Numbered from the stretch's first letter, positions 16,478 through 25,278 are shown. The stretch is 35,135 nucleotides of DNA from an uncultured Ilumatobacter sp. (GCA_938044705.1 CALIOL010000011.1:1-35135); one strand, 5' to 3'. Program-made: numbers and translations. Notes: generated by a model not told the origin, from the sequence alone.

Positions 16478-16518
16478 GTGGCGCGCTGACTGTCGCGCCA
16501 TCAGCCGACGGGCGCTTC

Positions 16519-16546
16519 GAGACCTCCACCCTGGGGTGGAGGTCTC
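16519..16546. promoter_or_regulatory. operator palindrome of the kinase/regulator operon
   Basis: Thirteen-base perfect arms (GAGACCTCCACCC and its complement) flank TG. The inner 18 bp, CTCCACCC-N2-GGGTGGAG, are identical in arm sequence and spacing to the element before the ABC genes. The centre is 67.5 bp upstream of the kinase start. A further GGTCTC-N4-GAGACC pair overlaps its left part (16541-16556). The remaining gap up to the subtilase gene (16547-16709) shows no other strong element. Confidence 0.72.
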
Positions 16547-16718
16547 GGTGGAGACCAGATCAGCTCGTACCGCTTCGGACGGCCCGACTGACTTCTTCCG
16601 CGCCGCCGATGAACTCGTACTACGTTGCGAGGCGGGCACGGAATCCATCAATTGCTGACGACCGTTCATCGAGGGTCAGCGGGTACGTGAGCGTTCGTCT
16701 CTTCGAAACGGAGGATGA

Positions 16719-18269
16719 ATGCGTTACTGGAAAAGGGTTGCCCTCACGGCACTGATCGGCGTTGTCAGCGTTCCCGCTGCGACGTCTGCGAGTGCTGGTG
16801 AGACGCAACAGAACGAAGCCGCAACGGCCGAACTCGTTGCAAACAGCTACATCGTGATCCTCGAAGAGGGCGCGACCGCGAGTATCGACGTGGTCATGGC
16901 GTCGGTGCCCGAGCTGGCACTGGCTGCAACATCGGCCGACGGGTCGCACAACGGCACGCGTGTGACCCACCGCTACAGCACTGCGGTCGACGGTTTCGCC
17001 GCCGAGATGAGCACGAGTGCGGTGAAGCAACTGCAATCACATCCCGACGTCGCACTGGTCGAACGAGATCAGATCGTGTCGATCGATGCCACCTGGGGCC
17101 AGGACCGGATCGACGACAGGAACCTGCCGTTGGACGGAACGTTCAGCGCGACCGGTGATGGCACCGGCGTCCACGCCTACGTGATCGACACCGGGCTGCG
17201 CGAGAGTCACAACGACTTCGCTGGACGAGTCGGTCAGGGCTTCGACGCTGTTGGCGGCGGTGTGAACGACTGCAACGGTCACGGCACTCACGTCGCCGGC
17301 ACCGTGGCCGGAACGACGTATGGCGTCGCACCGGACGCGACCGTCCACGGCGTCCGAGTGCTCGGCTGCAACGGATCGGGTTCGAACTCCGGCGTGATCG
17401 CCGGCGTCGACTGGGTGGCGGCGAACGCAATCCAACCCGCCGTCGCGAACATGAGCCTCGGAGGCACCGCGTCGACTGCGCTCGACAATGCGATCGCCAA
17501 CGCCGTCGCCAGCGGGGTGACGATGGTCGTCGCTGCAGGCAACGAGAACCAGAACGCGTGCAACGTGTCCCCTGCCCGGGAGGATTCGGCGATCACCGTC
17601 GGAGCGACGACTCGTACCGATGCTCGTGCGAGCTTCTCGAACTTCGGAACGTGCGTCGACATCTTCGCTCCGGGTCAGGATGTGACCTCCACCTGGATCG
17701 GCTCCGACTCGGCGACGCGCACGATCAGCGGCACGTCGATGGCTGCGCCACACGTGGCTGGCGGCGCGGCGATCGTGTTGGAGGCAAACCCCTCGGCGTC
17801 ACCTGCCGCGGTGGGCAATGCGCTGCTCAGCGACGCCACAACGGGCGCGCTGTCCGGCATCGGCACCGGCTCGCCGAACCTGCTCCTGTTCGTCGGCTCG
17901 GATGGCGACACGCCGCCGCCGACAACCACGCCACCCACGACCACCCCGCCAACGGGTGACTGTGGGTCGAGCAGCGAAGCCTTCTCCGGCAACCTGAGCG
18001 GCACAGGCGACACCGAGATCGAGCCGAACGGTACGTACTACCAGGCTCCAGCGGGCCAGCACGTCGGTTGTCTCGCCGGCCCGGCAGGCACCGATTTCGA
18101 CTTGGAGCTGTACCGGTGGAACGGTTCGGGATGGTCGCTCGTCGCCAACGGCATCACCGCCGACAGCACAGAATCCGTCAGCTACCAGGGAGCGAGCGGG
18201 TTCTACGTGTGGCAGGTCGTGAGCGCCGGCGGGAGCGGCAGCTACGACTTCGGTCTCGATCGGCCGTAG
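16719..18269 (+). CDS. secreted subtilisin-family serine protease (S8)
   Basis: A 516-residue secreted protease. It has a signal peptide (about 1-26, K-R then a hydrophobic core and A-S-A), an I9-type inhibitor propeptide (about 43-120) and the S8 catalytic domain (about 128-390). The catalytic triad is Asp157 (V-I-D-T-G), His188 (N-G-H-G-T-H-V-A-G) and Ser340 (G-T-S-M-A-A-P-H), with oxyanion Asn275. A Pro/Thr linker (about 395-415) leads to a C-terminal domain resembling bacterial prepeptidase C-terminal (PPC) domains, usually removed after export. The domain order is that of aqualysin/proteinase K-like enzymes. ATG 16719 has GGAGG at 16710-16714. It is divergent from the kinase gene and probably scavenges extracellular protein. 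Confidence 0.95.
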
Positions 18270-18336: not shown

Positions 18337-19584
18337 TCAGGCGAGCGTGGCGGCGTGTGCCAGTGCGTCGTCCCAGCTCGCCTGTTCCATGAGCTGCCCG
18401 CGCATCTTCATCACCCAGCGCGGCGCGTTGACGCCGAGCGCTCCGTGCACCCGGTCGCCCGAGCGGTACAACGCCATGAATTTCGCGACACCGTCTTCGC
18501 CTGGCTCGGTCGACCCGAGGACGACTGCCACCTCGTCATCCTCGTGCACCCGACCGAGGAACTGCACGCGGATGTCGAACTGATCGCTCCAGAAGAACGG
18601 GACGGGAGCGTACGCCTGGGGTGCCTCGGCGCTTCGCCCGTTCGCCGCCAACAGGTTCTTCGCTGCTGCGGCACCCTGTTCGGCCGCATTCGTCCAGTGC
18701 TCGACGCGCATCTCTTCGTCGAACAGCGGGTTCGGCCACCGCAGCACGTCACCGGCGGCATAGACCCCCGTCACGGTGGTGCCATCGGCATCGAGCGCGT
18801 TGAGCGTTTCGTCGCACACGACACCGTCACGAATCTGCAGGCCGCTGTCGCCGAGCCACGCGGTGGCCGGCACGACACCGATCCCCACGACGACCACATC
18901 GGCCTCGATCAACTCGCCGCCTGCCAAGAGCACACCATCGTCGTGCAGCCGATCGACGGACACGCCACACCGGAGCGTCACACCGCGAGCTTCGTGCAGT
19001 GACCCGATCGCTGCGCCCATCTCCGCGCCGAGTCCTCGCATCAGTGGTGCCGGGCCGCCTTCGAGCACGGTGACCTCGTTGCCGAGCTGCTTTGCGGTTG
19101 CCGCGACTTCGAGGCCGATGAAGCCCGCTCCGATCACCACGACATGGCGACCACCTTCGGCGATCTCGGAGCGAAGTCGCATCGAGTCATCGAGTGTTCG
19201 CACCTCGTGCACGTGGCCGAACCGGCTCTGCTCGGGGAGACGGCGACACGCCGCTCCGGTCGCGATGATGCAGCCGTCGAACGCAAGGTCGGTTCCATCG
19301 GTCAGGTGGAGCACACGCGCATCGGTGTCCAGTCCGGCGGCTGCGAGGCCGAAGCGCCACTCCACATCGAGTTCGTCGAACGAGTCCGGTTGACGCAGGT
19401 GGATGCGGTCAGGCTCCCACTCCCCCGCCAACAGCTTCTTGGACAGTGGCGGCCGGTCGTAGGGACGGTGCTGCTCTGCACCGACGATCACCACCTCGCC
19501 GTCGAAGCCTTCGTTGCGCAACGTTTCCGCCGCACGCAAGCCCGCCAGCGATGCTCCGACGATCACGACCCGATTCAGATCCAT
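18337..19584 (-). CDS. FAD-dependent ferredoxin reductase-like oxidoreductase
   Basis: A 415-residue flavoprotein of the pyridine nucleotide-disulfide oxidoreductase fold, resembling NAD(P)H:ferredoxin/rubredoxin reductases that feed electrons to P450s or ring dioxygenases. It has an N-terminal FAD site V-I-V-G-A-S-L-A-G-L, the R-P-Y-D-R-P-P-L-S-K-K loop, a second dinucleotide site V-V-V-I-G-A-G-F-I-G-L-E for NAD(P)H, and the FAD-binding V-Y-A-A-G-D-V. The C-terminal reductase domain is at about 325-410. No redox-active Cys pair is seen. No ferredoxin or P450 gene is adjacent, so its partner is elsewhere. The ATG at 19584 has CATGTT six bases upstream. Confidence 0.9.
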   Translation of the reverse strand: MDLNRVVIVGASLAGLRAAETLRNEGFDGEVVIVGAEQHRPYDRPPLSKKLLAGEWEPDRIHLRQPDSFDELDVEWRFGLAAAGLDTDARVLHLTDGTDLAFDGCIIATGAACRRLPEQSRFGHVHEVRTLDDSMRLRSEIAEGGRHVVVIGAGFIGLEVAATAKQLGNEVTVLEGGPAPLMRGLGAEMGAAIGSLHEARGVTLRCGVSVDRLHDDGVLLAGGELIEADVVVVGIGVVPATAWLGDSGLQIRDGVVCDETLNALDADGTTVTGVYAAGDVLRWPNPLFDEEMRVEHWTNAAEQGAAAAKNLLAANGRSAEAPQAYAPVPFFWSDQFDIRVQFLGRVHEDDEVAVVLGSTEPGEDGVAKFMALYRSGDRVHGALGVNAPRWVMKMRGQLMEQASWDDALAHAATLA

Positions 19585-20438: not shown

Positions 20439-20852
20439 ATGAGCGAGATGCCGACGGCGGACGAGGTCAACGCAATGATCGAGGAGCTCTTCCCCGGGAC
20501 CGGCAACACCTGCGCCGAGATCGGTGAAGGCTTCGCAACCGCGTCGCGCACCGTCGATGACACGATGCTGCGACCCGGCGGGTTCATCTCCGGACCGACT
20601 CAGTTCGGGCTCGCCGACGCAGCTCTCTGGTACATGGTGTTCGCGGCGATCGGCCGAGTCGAGCCGATGGCGATGACCTCCGAGCTGTCGATTCGCTATC
20701 TCCGTCCAGCTCAGGGCTCGGTCCTGTGGGCCCGTGCCGAGGTGGAGTCCGCCGGTCGACGCAACGTCGTGGGAACCGTGCACGTTTGGTGCGATGATCG
20801 TCGGCACAAGCCCACCGCCGTTGCGCAAGGCACCTACGCGATGCCGATGTAG
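20439..20852 (+). CDS. PaaI-like hotdog-fold thioesterase
   Basis: A 137-residue single hotdog-domain protein of the PaaI thioesterase group, which hydrolyses acyl-CoA or aryl-CoA esters. The region [20 protein letters not shown] covers the central helix with its conserved Asp/Asn-type catalytic area. Strands [11 protein letters not shown] and a C-terminal A-Q-G-T-Y-A-M-P follow. The substrate is unknown. ATG 20439 is placed by the -10 box; ATG 20448 is possible. A VOC protein gene follows after 25 bp on the same strand, probably cotranscribed. Confidence 0.82.
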
Positions 20853-20877
20853 ACGGCCGACCTCGACGGAGACACCC

Positions 20878-21303
20878 ATGCCCGACCTGCCACGTTTCCA
20901 TCACGCATTCCCCGTGCATGATCTCGCTGCCGCTCGCGGTTTCTACGGCGATGTGCTGGGCTGCCCGGAAGGGCGCCACTCCGAGCACTGGGTGGATTTC
21001 GACCTGTTCGGTCACCAGATCGTGGCGCACCTCGATACTTCCGGGGCCGCCCGCATCCGGACGCGCAACGACGTGGACGGCGATGCGGTGCCCGTGCCTC
21101 ACTTCGGACTGCTCCTCGAACCCGGAGACTGGCAGCAGCTCGCCGACCGCCTGCGTGAGACCGGCACCGAGTTCGTGATCGAGCCGCACGTTCGTTTCGT
21201 TGGCGAAGTCGGGGAACAGTCGACCATGTTCCTGCTCGACCCGTCGGGCAACGCGTTGGAGTTCAAGTCGTTCGCCGACGACGCCCAGGTCTTCGCCAAC
21301 TGA
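20878..21303 (+). CDS. VOC-family (glyoxalase/dioxygenase-fold) protein
   Basis: A 141-residue vicinal-oxygen-chelate fold protein with two babb modules. It begins [25 protein letters not shown], the usual start with a metal-ligand His. The second module has P-H-F-G-L-L-L-E and [14 protein letters not shown] with the C-terminal Glu ligand. Members include glyoxalases, ring-cleavage dioxygenases and antibiotic-binding proteins; the specific role is unknown. ATG 20878 has GGAGA five bases upstream. The open frame back to 20734 overlaps the thioesterase gene and is rejected. Convergent with the AlkB gene. Confidence 0.85.
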
Positions 21304-21327: not shown

Positions 21328-21960
21328 TCAGCGGGCGTCGTGGCGATACGTGATCGACAGGCGTGGGCCAGCGTGGCGGCGGCGCTTGGGTACACAGTGT
21401 TGCCATTCGTGCTGGCACGCACCCCCCATCACGAAGAGATCGCCGTGGCCGAGCCCCCACGTGAGTGAGGCGCCACCTTCTTCGCCGTGCTCGTCGTCGC
21501 GGTTGCGTCGCATCTGGAACGGCCGACTCTCACCGACGCTGAGGATTGCGACGATCGGGTCGGTCACCACGTTGCGGTGGCGGTCGCCGTGCCACGCAAC
21601 CGAGTCGTTCTGATCCCGGTAGAGGTTGTACCCGATGGAGTCGAAGTGCCGGTGGAAACGGTCCGCGAGCGCCCACCGAATGTCGGCGAGGATCGGGAGC
21701 GCGACTTCGTCTGACTCCGCCTCGTTCCACCACGACGTCAAGCGAGGCTCGTCAACCAGGCGGTCGTACATCGGGATGCCTCGCCGCTGCTCGAAGTCGA
21801 GGCAGTCCATGAGATCGTCGAACAGCGCGTCGGACCCACTGAGCCAACCCGGCACGTACTCGACCCACGACGCACCGCTGAGTTGACTGCGCGAAGCTGT
21901 ACTGAACGACGGATCGAACGATGGCTCTTCGGCACCGAAGAGTGAGGCCTGACGGAACAT
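21328..21960 (-). CDS. AlkB-like 2-oxoglutarate/Fe(II) dioxygenase
   Basis: A 210-residue DNA or RNA repair dioxygenase of the AlkB family, which removes alkyl groups from bases oxidatively. Fe(II) ligands are His124 and Asp126 in W-H-G-D-R-H and probably His188 in E-W-Q-H-C-V-P-K. Arg200 and Arg206 in R-L-S-I-T-Y-R bind 2-oxoglutarate. The nucleotide-recognition lid includes N-L-Y-R-D-Q-N-D. It looks closer to the short bacterial/ALKBH2-3-like type than to E. coli AlkB proper. ATG 21960 faces a 180-bp divergent gap shared with the MBL-fold operon. On the minus strand GAGGAT seven bases before the ATG is a weak leaderless -10 box. Confidence 0.88.
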   Translation of the reverse strand: MFRQASLFGAEEPSFDPSFSTASRSQLSGASWVEYVPGWLSGSDALFDDLMDCLDFEQRRGIPMYDRLVDEPRLTSWWNEAESDEVALPILADIRWALADRFHRHFDSIGYNLYRDQNDSVAWHGDRHRNVVTDPIVAILSVGESRPFQMRRNRDDEHGEEGGASLTWGLGHGDLFVMGGACQHEWQHCVPKRRRHAGPRLSITYRHDAR

Positions 21961-22090
21961 ACGTTCGATCCTCGCGAATCACGTCCCCGTCGTCAAGCGC
22001 GAACTCGACGCGACCGGAGCGAAGACCCTTCAGAAATCACGACGTCGATGTCACTCCCAGTGGAACGGTGCGCACTGCGCAAGCGCTGAA

Positions 22091-22116
22091 GGTTCTATGC
22101 TGGGCAGCATAGAACC
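22091..22116. promoter_or_regulatory. 26-bp operator palindrome before the MBL/FAH/CMD operon
   Basis: Twelve-base perfect arms, GGTTCTATGCTG and its complement, flank GG. The element ends 24 bases before the first gene and contains TATGCT (22096-22101), which could be its -10 box. Such long dyads are typical TetR-family sites, and the last gene of the operon encodes a TetR regulator. The rest of the 180-bp gap shows no other clear element. Confidence 0.75.
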
Positions 22117-22140
22117 TGTCGATAGGCATAGGAATCGCAA

Positions 22141-23121
22141 ATGAGTGTCACCGCTGGTGTATTCGCCAAGGGGTTAGTCGAGGTCGCCGATGGCGTCTTC
22201 GCCTACCTACAGCCAGACGGAACGTGGGGGTGGAGTAACGCTGGGCTCATCGTCGGCGAAGGCGAGTCCGCGCTCGTCGACACCCTGTTCGACCTTCGCC
22301 TGACCCAGCAGATGCTCGACGAGATGGCGCCGCACACGTCGCGCCAGCCGATTGCCAACGTGGTCAACACGCATGCGAACGGCGACCACTGCTACGGCAA
22401 CCAGCTGGTCGCAGCTCCGGGTGTCGACTTCATCACGTCGGCGTCAGCGATGGCCGAGATGGACGAGGTCCCACCAGCGCTGCTGGCCGCGCTCACCGAA
22501 GGCGTCGGCGACGACGCACTCGGCCGCTACATCACACACGCGTTCGGATCGTTCGACTTCAACGGCATCGAGATGCCCGACGTCACCGTCGGCTTCACCG
22601 ATCGCCACGAACTCGACGCCGGTGGCCGCCAGATCGACCTCCTCGAGGTTGGTCCTGCACACACCGGCGGTGACGTGTTGGCGTGGCTCCCGGAGGAGCG
22701 GGTGCTGTTCGCTGGCGACATCTTGTTCATCGAGGGCACGCCCATCATGTGGGCGGGTCCTGTGAGCGGGTGGATCGCGGCATTGGACACGATCATCGAC
22801 TTCGATCCGTCAGTGATCGTCCCGGGACACGGCCCACTCACGGACCTCGACGGTGTTCGCTCGCTGCGCGGCTACTTCGAGTTGGTCGATCGTCTCACCA
22901 CCGAGCGGCACGCCGGCGGTATGGCCCTCGACGACGCGATCCGAGACATCGACGACCACATCGATGACTCGCCGTTCTGCGAGTGGTCCGACCGAGAACG
23001 GATCGTGGTCAACGTGCAGACGATCTGGCGAGGGCTCGAGCCCACGTTCACCAACCCGGACGTGTTGACGACGTTCCAGATGATGGCCGACAACTACGTC
23101 GCCCGAGAGGAGAAGGCATGA
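22141..23121 (+). CDS. MBL-fold metallo-hydrolase
   Basis: A 326-residue metallo-beta-lactamase fold hydrolase. The metal motif is T-H-A-N-G-D-H-C-Y-G-N (His78, Asn80, Asp82, His83), so the second His of H-x-H-x-D-H is Asn. This variant exists in a subgroup of uncharacterised MBL proteins. Later ligands are His in G-P-A-H-T-G-G-D, Asp in F-A-G-D-I-L-F and His in P-G-H-G-P. A C-terminal helical region of about 70 residues follows. It is the first gene of an operon with an FAH-type hydrolase and a CMD-family protein, which suggests lactone or ester hydrolysis in a catabolic route (inference). AGGA stands seven bases before the ATG; the stop overlaps the next start as ATGA. Confidence 0.87.
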   Translation: MSVTAGVFAKGLVEVADGVFAYLQPDGTWGWSNAGLIVGEGESALVDTLFDLRLTQQMLDEMAPHTSRQPIANVVNTHANGDHCYGNQLVAAPGVDFITSASAMAEMDEVPPALLAALTEGVGDDALGRYITHAFGSFDFNGIEMPDVTVGFTDRHELDAGGRQIDLLEVGPAHTGGDVLAWLPEERVLFAGDILFIEGTPIMWAGPVSGWIAALDTIIDFDPSVIVPGHGPLTDLDGVRSLRGYFELVDRLTTERHAGGMALDDAIRDIDDHIDDSPFCEWSDRERIVVNVQTIWRGLEPTFTNPDVLTTFQMMADNYVAREEKA

Positions 23122-24059
23122 GATGGGTCACCTACGACAACGGAGGCGACGCGAAGGTCGGCATCGTGCGGGGCCGCGACATTCACGACAGCGGCGATGA
23201 TCGAACGCTGCTGGAACTCCTCCGTGCCGGCCCGGGAGAGATGGACGCCGTGGCCGCAGCGGCAAGCCGATCTGCACCGACCATCACCGTGGAGGAAGCG
23301 ACCCTCCACGCACCGCTCGAACCGCCGTCGGTGAGGGACTTCATGTGCTTCCTCGACCACTATCGCAACGCAACACTCAACCCGGACCTCGACCCGATCT
23401 GGAGCGAGCAACCAGCGTTCTACTTCTCCAATCCGCACGCCACGATCGGACCGGCAACACCAGCGCCGATTTCTCCCGGATGCGACATGTTCGACTTCGA
23501 ACTTGAAGTCGCGTGCGTCATCGGGACTGGCGGCACCAACCTGCACCCCGACGAAGCCGATGCCCACATCGCGGGCTACACGATCTTCTGCGACTGGTCC
23601 GCACGCGACCTGCAGTTCGTGGACATGCAACTCGGGTTGGGGCCGACGAAGGGCAAGGACGGCGCCACCACACTCGGGCCTGCCCTCGTCACCGCTGACG
23701 AGCTCGCAGACCGACGCTCGGGCAAGGGCTTCGATCTCCGCATGCGAGCCTGGATCAACGACGAGTTGGTCACCGACGGGTCGCTCGCCCAACTCGATTG
23801 GTCGTTTGCCGAGATGGTGGCGCACGCCTCTCGAGGCACCGAAGTGAGGGTCGGCGACGTGATCGGCTCGGGCACCGTTCCGATGGGTTGCCTGCTCGAG
23901 CGGGCCATGCGCGATGGCGAAGACTTCCGAGGCTGGCTCGCCGCGGGCGATCGGCTTCGTCTCGACGTCGATGTCCTTGGCACGCTCGACCTCGTGGTCG
24001 CCAACCAACTCCCGTCGCACCCAACTCGCGAAAGCACCGACACGCAAGGACCTAGCTGA
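23118..24059 (+). CDS. fumarylacetoacetate hydrolase-family protein
   Basis: A 313-residue FAH-fold enzyme; the family hydrolyses C-C bonds of beta-diketones or hydrates and decarboxylates 2-oxo acids from aromatic catabolism. The metal-binding site is in F-D-F-E-L-E-V-A-C-V-I-G. The stretch Y-T-I-F-C-D-W-S-A-R-D-L-Q and the loop G-L-G-P-T-K-G-K-D-G-A-T-T-L-G-P follow, then G-D-V-I-G-S-G-T-V-P-M-G-C-L-L-E. ATG 23118 overlaps the MBL stop and has AGGAGAAGG just upstream, a strong site. An open extension back to 22983 lies inside the MBL gene. Exact substrate unknown. Confidence 0.88.
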   Translation: MRWVTYDNGGDAKVGIVRGRDIHDSGDDRTLLELLRAGPGEMDAVAAAASRSAPTITVEEATLHAPLEPPSVRDFMCFLDHYRNATLNPDLDPIWSEQPAFYFSNPHATIGPATPAPISPGCDMFDFELEVACVIGTGGTNLHPDEADAHIAGYTIFCDWSARDLQFVDMQLGLGPTKGKDGATTLGPALVTADELADRRSGKGFDLRMRAWINDELVTDGSLAQLDWSFAEMVAHASRGTEVRVGDVIGSGTVPMGCLLERAMRDGEDFRGWLAAGDRLRLDVDVLGTLDLVVANQLPSHPTRESTDTQGPS

Positions 24060-24060
24060 C

Positions 24061-24675
24061 ATGGCCCGTATCTCACCGCTCCCGATCGAGCAGCTGGAAC
24101 ACCTCACCGAGCGGTTCGAGTTGACCGCGTCGCTCATGGGTTTCGTTCCGAACTCGATGCCGACCATGGCTCGGATCCCTGGACTCGCCGAGGCGTTCTC
24201 CGACCTGGCTGGCGTGGTGCTCGCGAATCCGAACGTTCCCATGGCGCTCAACCAAATGGTCGCCCAGGTGGCGTCGGCGGCCGCCGGGTGTCGCTACTGC
24301 CAGGCGCACACGGCGCACTCGGCGCACAACCTGGGCGTCCCCGCAGAGAAGTTGGCCGATCTGTGGTTGTGGGAGACGAGCGAGCACTTCGATGATGCCG
24401 AGCGGGCGGCGCTCACGCTGGCGTTCAACGCGGCGTCGGTCCCCAACACGGCGAGCATGGAGCACTTCGACGAGCTGAACAGGCACTTCGACGACGAACA
24501 GATACTGGGGATCGTCGCAACGGTCGCCCTGTTCGGGTTCCTCAACCGGTGGAACGACACGTTGGCGACCGACCTCGAAGACAAGCCGACCGCATTCGCC
24601 ACCGAGACACTTGCGTCGAGCGGCTGGCATGCTGGTCGACACGCTGACGACGGCGAATCGCCGTCACGCGACTGA
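24061..24675 (+). CDS. carboxymuconolactone decarboxylase/AhpD-family protein
   Basis: A 204-residue all-helical protein of the CMD/AhpD family. The motif A-A-G-C-R-Y-C-Q-A-H-T-A-H (Cys77, Cys80, His83) is the AhpD-type redox centre, as in peroxidase-like members. It could act as a peroxidase/reductase or, given its neighbours, in a catabolic step. The ATG comes one base after the FAH stop. The region of the open frame before 24061 overlaps FAH and is rejected. It is followed after 12 bp by a TetR gene. Confidence 0.87.
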   Translation: MARISPLPIEQLEHLTERFELTASLMGFVPNSMPTMARIPGLAEAFSDLAGVVLANPNVPMALNQMVAQVASAAAGCRYCQAHTAHSAHNLGVPAEKLADLWLWETSEHFDDAERAALTLAFNAASVPNTASMEHFDELNRHFDDEQILGIVATVALFGFLNRWNDTLATDLEDKPTAFATETLASSGWHAGRHADDGESPSRD

Positions 24676-24687
24676 TTACTGAGGGGC

Positions 24688-25278
24688 ATGGTGTCCAAAC
24701 CCAAACGCATGGAGGAGACGAGCACGGAGAGCCGAAGGCGAATCCTTGACGCCGCCGAGCGGCTGTTTGGCGAGCGAGGGTTCGTCGAGACCTCGCTCGC
24801 CGACGTGGCCGAGCTGTCGGGTATCTCACGCGGCTCGATTCCCTGGCACTTCGAGAACAAGCTCGGCCTGCTCATGGCCGTCGTGGACCGTGCGTCGGCG
24901 CGGGCCGGAGCCACACCGATCACCCCGGTCGTCGACGACTTGGAGAGTTCGATCCTCGAAGTCGGCAAACGCATGCGGGAGCCGCACATGGCGCTGCTTC
25001 ACACACTGCTCGCAGAAGCGAACAAGCCGGACTCACCGATTCGTGAGAGGTACGCGGCACATCACGAACGGGACCGAGATGCGGTTCGGGCCTGGCTCGA
25101 CCACTCCCCCACCGTCGAAGTCCGCGGCCTCGATCCGGCCGACTTGTCCACGTTGCTGTACGCGATGATCATTGGCATCAACGTCCAGTGGCGCATCGAT
25201 CCGGACAAGGTCGACCTCGACACCACCCTTACCGCGATGAGCAGGCTGCTGTCGGCGGCGACCACACCAGCAGAGTGA
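24688..25278 (+). CDS. TetR-family transcriptional regulator (of the MBL/FAH/CMD operon)
   Basis: A 196-residue TetR/AcrR regulator. The N-terminal helix-turn-helix covers about residues 17-62, with I-L-D-A-A-E-R-L-F-G-E-R-G-F and S-L-A-D-V-A-E-L-S-G-I-S-R-G-S-I-P-W-H-F. The C-terminal ligand domain is variable and unassigned. It closes the operon begun at 22141, so it most likely represses that operon and itself through the 26-bp palindrome at 22091-22116. The start is uncertain: ATG 24688 has AGGGG too close; the adjacent GTG 24691 and ATG 24709 are alternatives. Confidence 0.9.
   Translation: MVSKPKRMEETSTESRRRILDAAERLFGERGFVETSLADVAELSGISRGSIPWHFENKLGLLMAVVDRASARAGATPITPVVDDLESSILEVGKRMREPHMALLHTLLAEANKPDSPIRERYAAHHERDRDAVRAWLDHSPTVEVRGLDPADLSTLLYAMIIGINVQWRIDPDKVDLDTTLTAMSRLLSAATTPAE

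Follow-up and report, generated by a model that had tools for sequence, protein, structure and literature searches.

A predicted TetR-controlled catabolic operon built around an MBL-fold and FAH-type hydrolase pair in an uncultured Ilumatobacter

Operons autoregulated by TetR/AcrR proteins, such as those of TtgR, AcrR, ScbR and BetI, combine a regulator carrying an N-terminal HTH with a palindrome before the operon and a regulator gene in local position. Among the enzymes that such operons may be compared with here, C–C hydrolases of the FAH type are typical of catabolism, and their superfamily takes in fumarylacetoacetase (EC 3.7.1.2) as well as YisK, HpcE and FAHD1. The MBL superfamily includes chlorothalonil dehalogenase (Chd), SoxH-related hydrolases and PqsE, and the AhpD fold is that of the tetrabromopyrrole debrominase Bmp8. 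We analyzed a 35,135-nucleotide stretch of DNA from an uncultured Ilumatobacter sp. (referred to throughout as the window), in which relatives of each of these proteins are encoded side by side. The features of the locus are the following.

22090–22117, strand not applicable: perfect inverted repeat with 13-bp arms and a 2-bp GG spacer, predicted TetR operator
22141–23121, plus strand: MBL-fold metallohydrolase, 326 aa (PF00753)
23118–24059, plus strand: FAH-superfamily hydrolase, 313 aa (PF01557)
24061–24675, plus strand: AhpD/CMD-fold protein with CxxC, Bmp8-like subfamily, 204 aa (PF02627)
24688–25278, plus strand: TetR-family regulator, predicted autorepressor of the operon, 196 aa (PF00440)
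21328–21960, minus strand: AlkB-like gene, divergent, on the other side of the dyad

The four ORFs of the operon lie head to tail on the plus strand in the order MBL, FAH, CMD/AhpD and TetR, with a 4-nt ATGA overlap between MBL and FAH, a gap of 1 nt between FAH and AhpD and a gap of 12 nt between AhpD and TetR, exactly as a preliminary description of this DNA had reported. Each product scored above the gathering cut-off of its Pfam family, specifically 84 bits for the MBL (Lactamase_B, cut-off 22.7), 162 bits for the FAH (FAA_hydrolase, cut-off 23.9), 44 bits for the AhpD-like protein (CMD, cut-off 23) and 52.1 bits for the regulator (TetR_N, cut-off 24), which places the two hydrolases in their superfamilies and the third protein, with its CxxC, in the CMD/AhpD superfamily, and gives the regulator its N-terminal HTH. 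Upstream of the operon and on the same strand, the window also holds a thioesterase–VOC gene pair (20439–21303), and a ferredoxin reductase encoded on the minus strand (18337–19584) resembles aromatic dioxygenase reductases at scores below the cut-off.

With respect to regulation, the dyad reads AGGTTCTATGCTG-GG-CAGCATAGAACCT, contains the 18-bp core CTATGCTGGGCAGCATAG at 22095–22112, and is separated from the first ATG by 23 bp. It had been described as a perfect 26-bp repeat just before the first gene; its perfection and position stand, and its length is corrected to 28 bp, one base more on each side. The 26-mer occurs a single time in the 3.88-Mb genome with up to 3 mismatches allowed. When perfect dyads with gaps of up to 10 were counted in order-1 Markov resamples of the window, arms of at least 12 arose 0.075 times per 35 kb, and arms of at least 13 were absent from all 40 resamples. 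The terminator scan found no T-run at the dyad, which by that scan is therefore not a terminator. One other perfect dyad of such size is present in the window, CGAGACCTCCACCC-TG-GGGTGGAGGTCTCG at 16518–16547 (14-bp arms), shortly before a subtilisin-like ORF at 16719.

The recognition helix of the regulator is SRGSIPWHF. Searches of 200 genomes in each of two actinomycete families returned TetR homologues that nearly all carry the identical helix, and those with this helix have the 18-bp dyad CTRTGYTGGYCARCAYAG in common; CTRTGTTGGYCAACAYAG or close variants of it lie between the homologous TetR gene and its divergent neighbor, be that FAH-MBL or another gene. A matrix built from 30 sites beside TetR homologues, with the window left out, ranked the window's dyad core first at 18.4 bits, the next best site in the 35 kb scoring 6.2 bits; across 20 shuffled windows no site exceeded 12.3 bits. 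The consensus, with at most one mismatch, was found in 17 of 18 actinomycete genomes of 7–11 Mb, each time beside the TetR gene, and it is the sole site in 15 of those 17 (extra copies being two further imperfect sites in G1061 and a second, tandem copy in G1011); the reversed-pattern control gave 0–1. The Ilumatobacter genome has one exact consensus match, the window dyad itself. The choice of the relatives' sites was in part circular, since they were first selected for resembling the window core; they agree with one another at bases absent from the window (T6, Y10 and A13), occupy similar positions and are nearly unique per genome. Because matching dyads lie beside homologues with the same helix, and because the window-free matrix ranks it first, the dyad is almost certainly the operator of this TetR, as predicted from these comparisons. 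The earlier proposal of an operon with its own TetR acting at the palindrome is in this way strengthened by the motif that adjoins the homologous regulators. No description of a matching recognition helix or operator was found in the literature searched.

Two TetR homologues bring the regulator and the hydrolases together. The best homologue of the window TetR in G736, the genome of L078, scores 133 bits and the next 59, while G737, the genome of L100, has a single match at 143 bits; both of these adjoin an FAH-MBL gene. Elsewhere the TetR/operator unit adjoins genes for DUF2867, DUF6463, SDR, MFS, AMP ligase or enoyl-CoA hydratase proteins, and since it controls different genes in other genomes the regulator does not define one pathway. 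The TetR homologues of L218–L237, at 36–45% identity, have the operator in common, often 1–2 kb off and before SDR, MFS, AMP-ligase or enoyl-CoA hydratase genes; they make up a broader set of regulators in which one motif goes with many different targets. At the level of the phylum, a search of 396 genomes for the TetR at E 1e-20 found it in its own genome only, among the best 8 candidates per genome.

In terms of the enzymes, MBL and FAH are coupled. A scan of genome contigs with the single FAH protein as query gave no matches; an alignment query gave the 80 closest FAH loci, among which an MBL of the window type adjoins FAH in L064, L065 and L069. Two plasmids (L058 and L059; Pseudonocardia and Streptomyces clavuligerus) also carry the genes adjacently, with a one-base overlap and their own TetR upstream on the Pseudonocardia plasmid, and the genera with adjacent genes are Gordonia, Nocardioides, Pseudonocardia and Streptomyces. 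In 11 of the 80 FAH loci, one of them cut by a contig end, the two proteins are fused in one ORF (Nonomuraea, Saccharothrix and nine Mycobacterium). The adjacent and fused loci and the window fall into one clade of the FAH tree (34 rows, SH-aLRT 98), where only L066, L071, L072, L083 and L086 had no MBL nearby by tblastn, and at 16 distinct TetR loci both FAH and MBL lie beside the TetR gene. Since the genes are adjacent in several genera and fused in others, FAH and MBL very probably act on one pathway. The same conclusion is indicated by a second group of FAH proteins, whose partners belong to another MBL subfamily (L068, L070, L074, L077, L090 and L135). This second MBL subfamily is 30–36% identical to the window MBL, and its pairing is apparently independent. 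The literature searched yielded no description of FAH-MBL coupling.

Among the neighbors of related genes, a CoA-transferase pair with MFS occurs in L116 and L060, AMP ligases in L058, L060 and L069, a P450 with a second FAH in L064 and L071, and enoyl-CoA hydratase genes among related FAH-MBL loci; L071 adds a hydroxylase of the 3-hydroxyphenylpropionate type together with a protein that resembles extradiol dioxygenases. Such genes for CoA ligase, CoA transferase, MFS, P450, ring hydroxylase and extradiol dioxygenase fit the catabolic reading offered in the preliminary description. The Mycobacterium cluster of L071 (2456–10385), with a P450, an HpaG-like FAH, the 3-HPP-type hydroxylase, the extradiol dioxygenase-like protein and an AMP ligase, includes a clade-mate of the window FAH and has no MBL.

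The predicted model of the FAH (pLDDT 90.6) is closest in fold to fumarylacetoacetases, matching 4qku (Z 36.0), 5ti1 (Z 35.6) and the mouse enzyme 1qcn (Z 34.7) over 296–297 residues, with YisK about tied. The fumarylacetoacetase-type residues D74, H81, E128, E130, D159, R163, Q166, K180 and E261 are present, and D74, H81, E128, E130 and D159 are invariant in alignment A8. In order, the nine correspond to mouse residues that we take to be D126, H133, E199, E201, D233, R237, Q240, K253 and E364, a mapping anchored by the DWSARDxQ and DF...H motifs. Identity as fumarylacetoacetase proper was rejected, the TIGR01266 equivalog model giving 64.6 of the 375.3 bits of its cut-off.

The MBL (predicted model, pLDDT 93) carries the motif residues H78-x-N80-x-D82-H83, H174, D193 and H230. 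H78, D82, H83, H174, D193 and H230 are invariant in the alignment, and the second His of HxHxDH is Asn (N80); with one canonical His replaced, the metal site and reaction are uncertain. Its structural matches include 8d2z (Z 32.6) and Chd 6uxu (Z 29.2), and because matches come from Chd, alkylsulfatases, lactamases and PqsE alike, the comparison singles out no function. The best sequence match is Chd, whose zinc ligands are Asp116, His117, Asn216 and His257 (PMC12784990). D82, H83 and H230 of the window MBL align with Asp116, His117 and His257, whereas D193 stands at the Asn216 position and H78 and H174 are extra; given this replacement in the ligand set, the protein was not assigned as Chd. 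Subclass B1 metallo-beta-lactamase was likewise rejected (NF033088, 52.8 of 200 bits). The same genome encodes a paralogous MBL (G000:C324, 51%; L032 6445–9936) that sits between genes for a lycopene-cyclase family protein and a GMC oxidoreductase rather than beside FAH. Recent duplication of this paralogue was rejected as the source of the window gene, the paralogue lying inside the family MBL clade (99/99) and the window gene outside it. A position outside the vertically inherited family clade fits acquisition of the window MBL gene from elsewhere.

Taken together, we regard it as probable that this is an autoregulated catabolic operon in which TetR represses through the dyad and the MBL and FAH enzymes act together on one substrate. 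The product of the last gene would bind 22090–22117 and repress the whole operon, itself included, until a pathway compound releases it from the dyad. Of the two jointly working hydrolases, the MBL would most likely act first by hydrolyzing an ester, lactone or thioester linkage, and the 1,3-dicarbonyl acid so formed would next be split at a C–C bond by the FAH, leaving a small acid plus a 3-oxoacid that could enter central metabolism. This order is suggested by the residues and fold of the FAH, the residues of the MBL and the genes of related loci. The AhpD-like thiol protein may supply an accessory redox or reductive step, and the substrate could be a ring- or lactone-cleavage product, the class put forward earlier. 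For a triacetic-acid-lactone link and for the four-gene set, nothing relevant was found in the literature searched.

The next reading, which we consider unlikely, is an operon for detoxification or signal breakdown, in which TetR would sense a toxic lactone, an antibiotic or a signal that the hydrolases and the AhpD-like protein inactivate. Its appeal lies in a TetR N terminus that resembles AcrR and TtgR and, weakly, the butyrolactone receptor ScbR, in the control of MFS transporters and SDRs by the TetR/operator unit elsewhere, and in the shortness of an operon without CoA enzymes of its own. Related FAH-MBL loci, however, do include CoA ligase, CoA transferase and enoyl-CoA hydratase genes, FAH-type C–C hydrolases generally belong to catabolism, and the MBL does not reach the NCBIfam lactamase cut-offs.

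The AhpD-like protein raises a further alternative to the catabolic operon. The ten relatives in alignment A4 all keep its CxxC cysteines C77 and C80, and its best PDB match is Bmp8 (6ohi, E 2.7e-33, 118.6 bits; next unrelated match 43.6). In the Bmp8 variant 6ohj, as seen in the alignment, the first Cys of CxxC is replaced by Ala. Assignment as a peroxidase-related enzyme was rejected (TIGR01926, 54.8 of 81.8 bits). A dehalogenating pathway, in which this protein would remove halogen reductively as Bmp8 does and MBL and FAH would process the dehalogenated ring product, could draw on the Bmp8 match, on the retained first Cys and on Chd as the best sequence match of the MBL; we hold it to be improbable, in that Bmp8 may simply be the sole solved member of a broad subfamily, the MBL lacks the Chd ligand set, and most FAH-MBL loci have no AhpD-like gene. 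The fuller version, a new route whose Bmp8-like enzyme acts on a halogenated (hetero)aromatic, whose MBL-FAH pair opens and cleaves the product and whose TetR senses the halogenated compound, is a long shot. Dehalogenation by the AhpD-like protein is best treated as a lead from sequence likeness. The Bmp8-like subfamily is indeed broad, being found with OsmC and gluconolactonase genes or as tandem copies. One such locus (L055, 4415–5583) has two tandem Bmp8-like AhpD genes and a divergent TetR-like gene.

An AhpD-like gene accompanies FAH and MBL in one other locus only, that of an Acidimicrobiia MAG (L064), in whose genome no TetR of the window type was found. Among the loci compared, the full four-gene set occurs in the window only, and in a class search of 247 genomes FAH was present in 7 and the AhpD-like protein in 6, own genome included, with the genes together in none fetched. 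Conservation of gene order, suggested earlier as a check, thus holds for MBL and FAH as a co-conserved pair and fails for the four genes as a set; judged by these gene contents, the operon is a local combination of widely shuffled pieces. That the dyad is instead a terminator or another regulator's site (for example, for the AlkB-like gene) and the gene set a chance neighborhood is barely credible: the dyad does lie between divergent genes and the whole set is not conserved, but a T-run is lacking, in other families the motif accompanies TetR genes homologous to this one, and overlapping starts and stops together with fusions show that FAH and MBL are coupled.

The regulator–operator unit and the hydrolase pair are real, well conserved and ordinary in kind. 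The FAH-MBL fusions of actinomycetes, mycobacteria among them, would mark a two-step hydrolysis for which no description was found in the literature searched. The regulator and its predicted operator are defined well enough to serve as a handle towards the substrate, and the operator motif predicts targets for this TetR group in at least two actinomycete families.

As regards described systems, the AhpD-like protein matches Bmp8 over 175 residues and has the GCxYC and NRWN motifs in common with it, whereas no other bmp-type gene was recognized among the genes examined, and most homologues of the protein are found in unrelated contexts. The MBL has the same fold as Chd, SoxH-related hydrolases and PqsE, but reaches just 110 of the 280 bits set for SoxH_rel_PQQ_2. 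The FAH keeps the PF01557 fold and the metal and His/Glu catalytic positions of fumarylacetoacetase and its superfamily, and no homogentisate genes were recognized near it; it differs from fumarylacetoacetase in being paired with an MBL hydrolase, to which it is fused in relatives. The TetR has the N-terminal HTH, the palindrome before the operon and the local gene position of TtgR, AcrR, ScbR and BetI, and is set apart from them by the helix SRGSIPWHF and the operator CTRTGYTGGYCARCAYAG.
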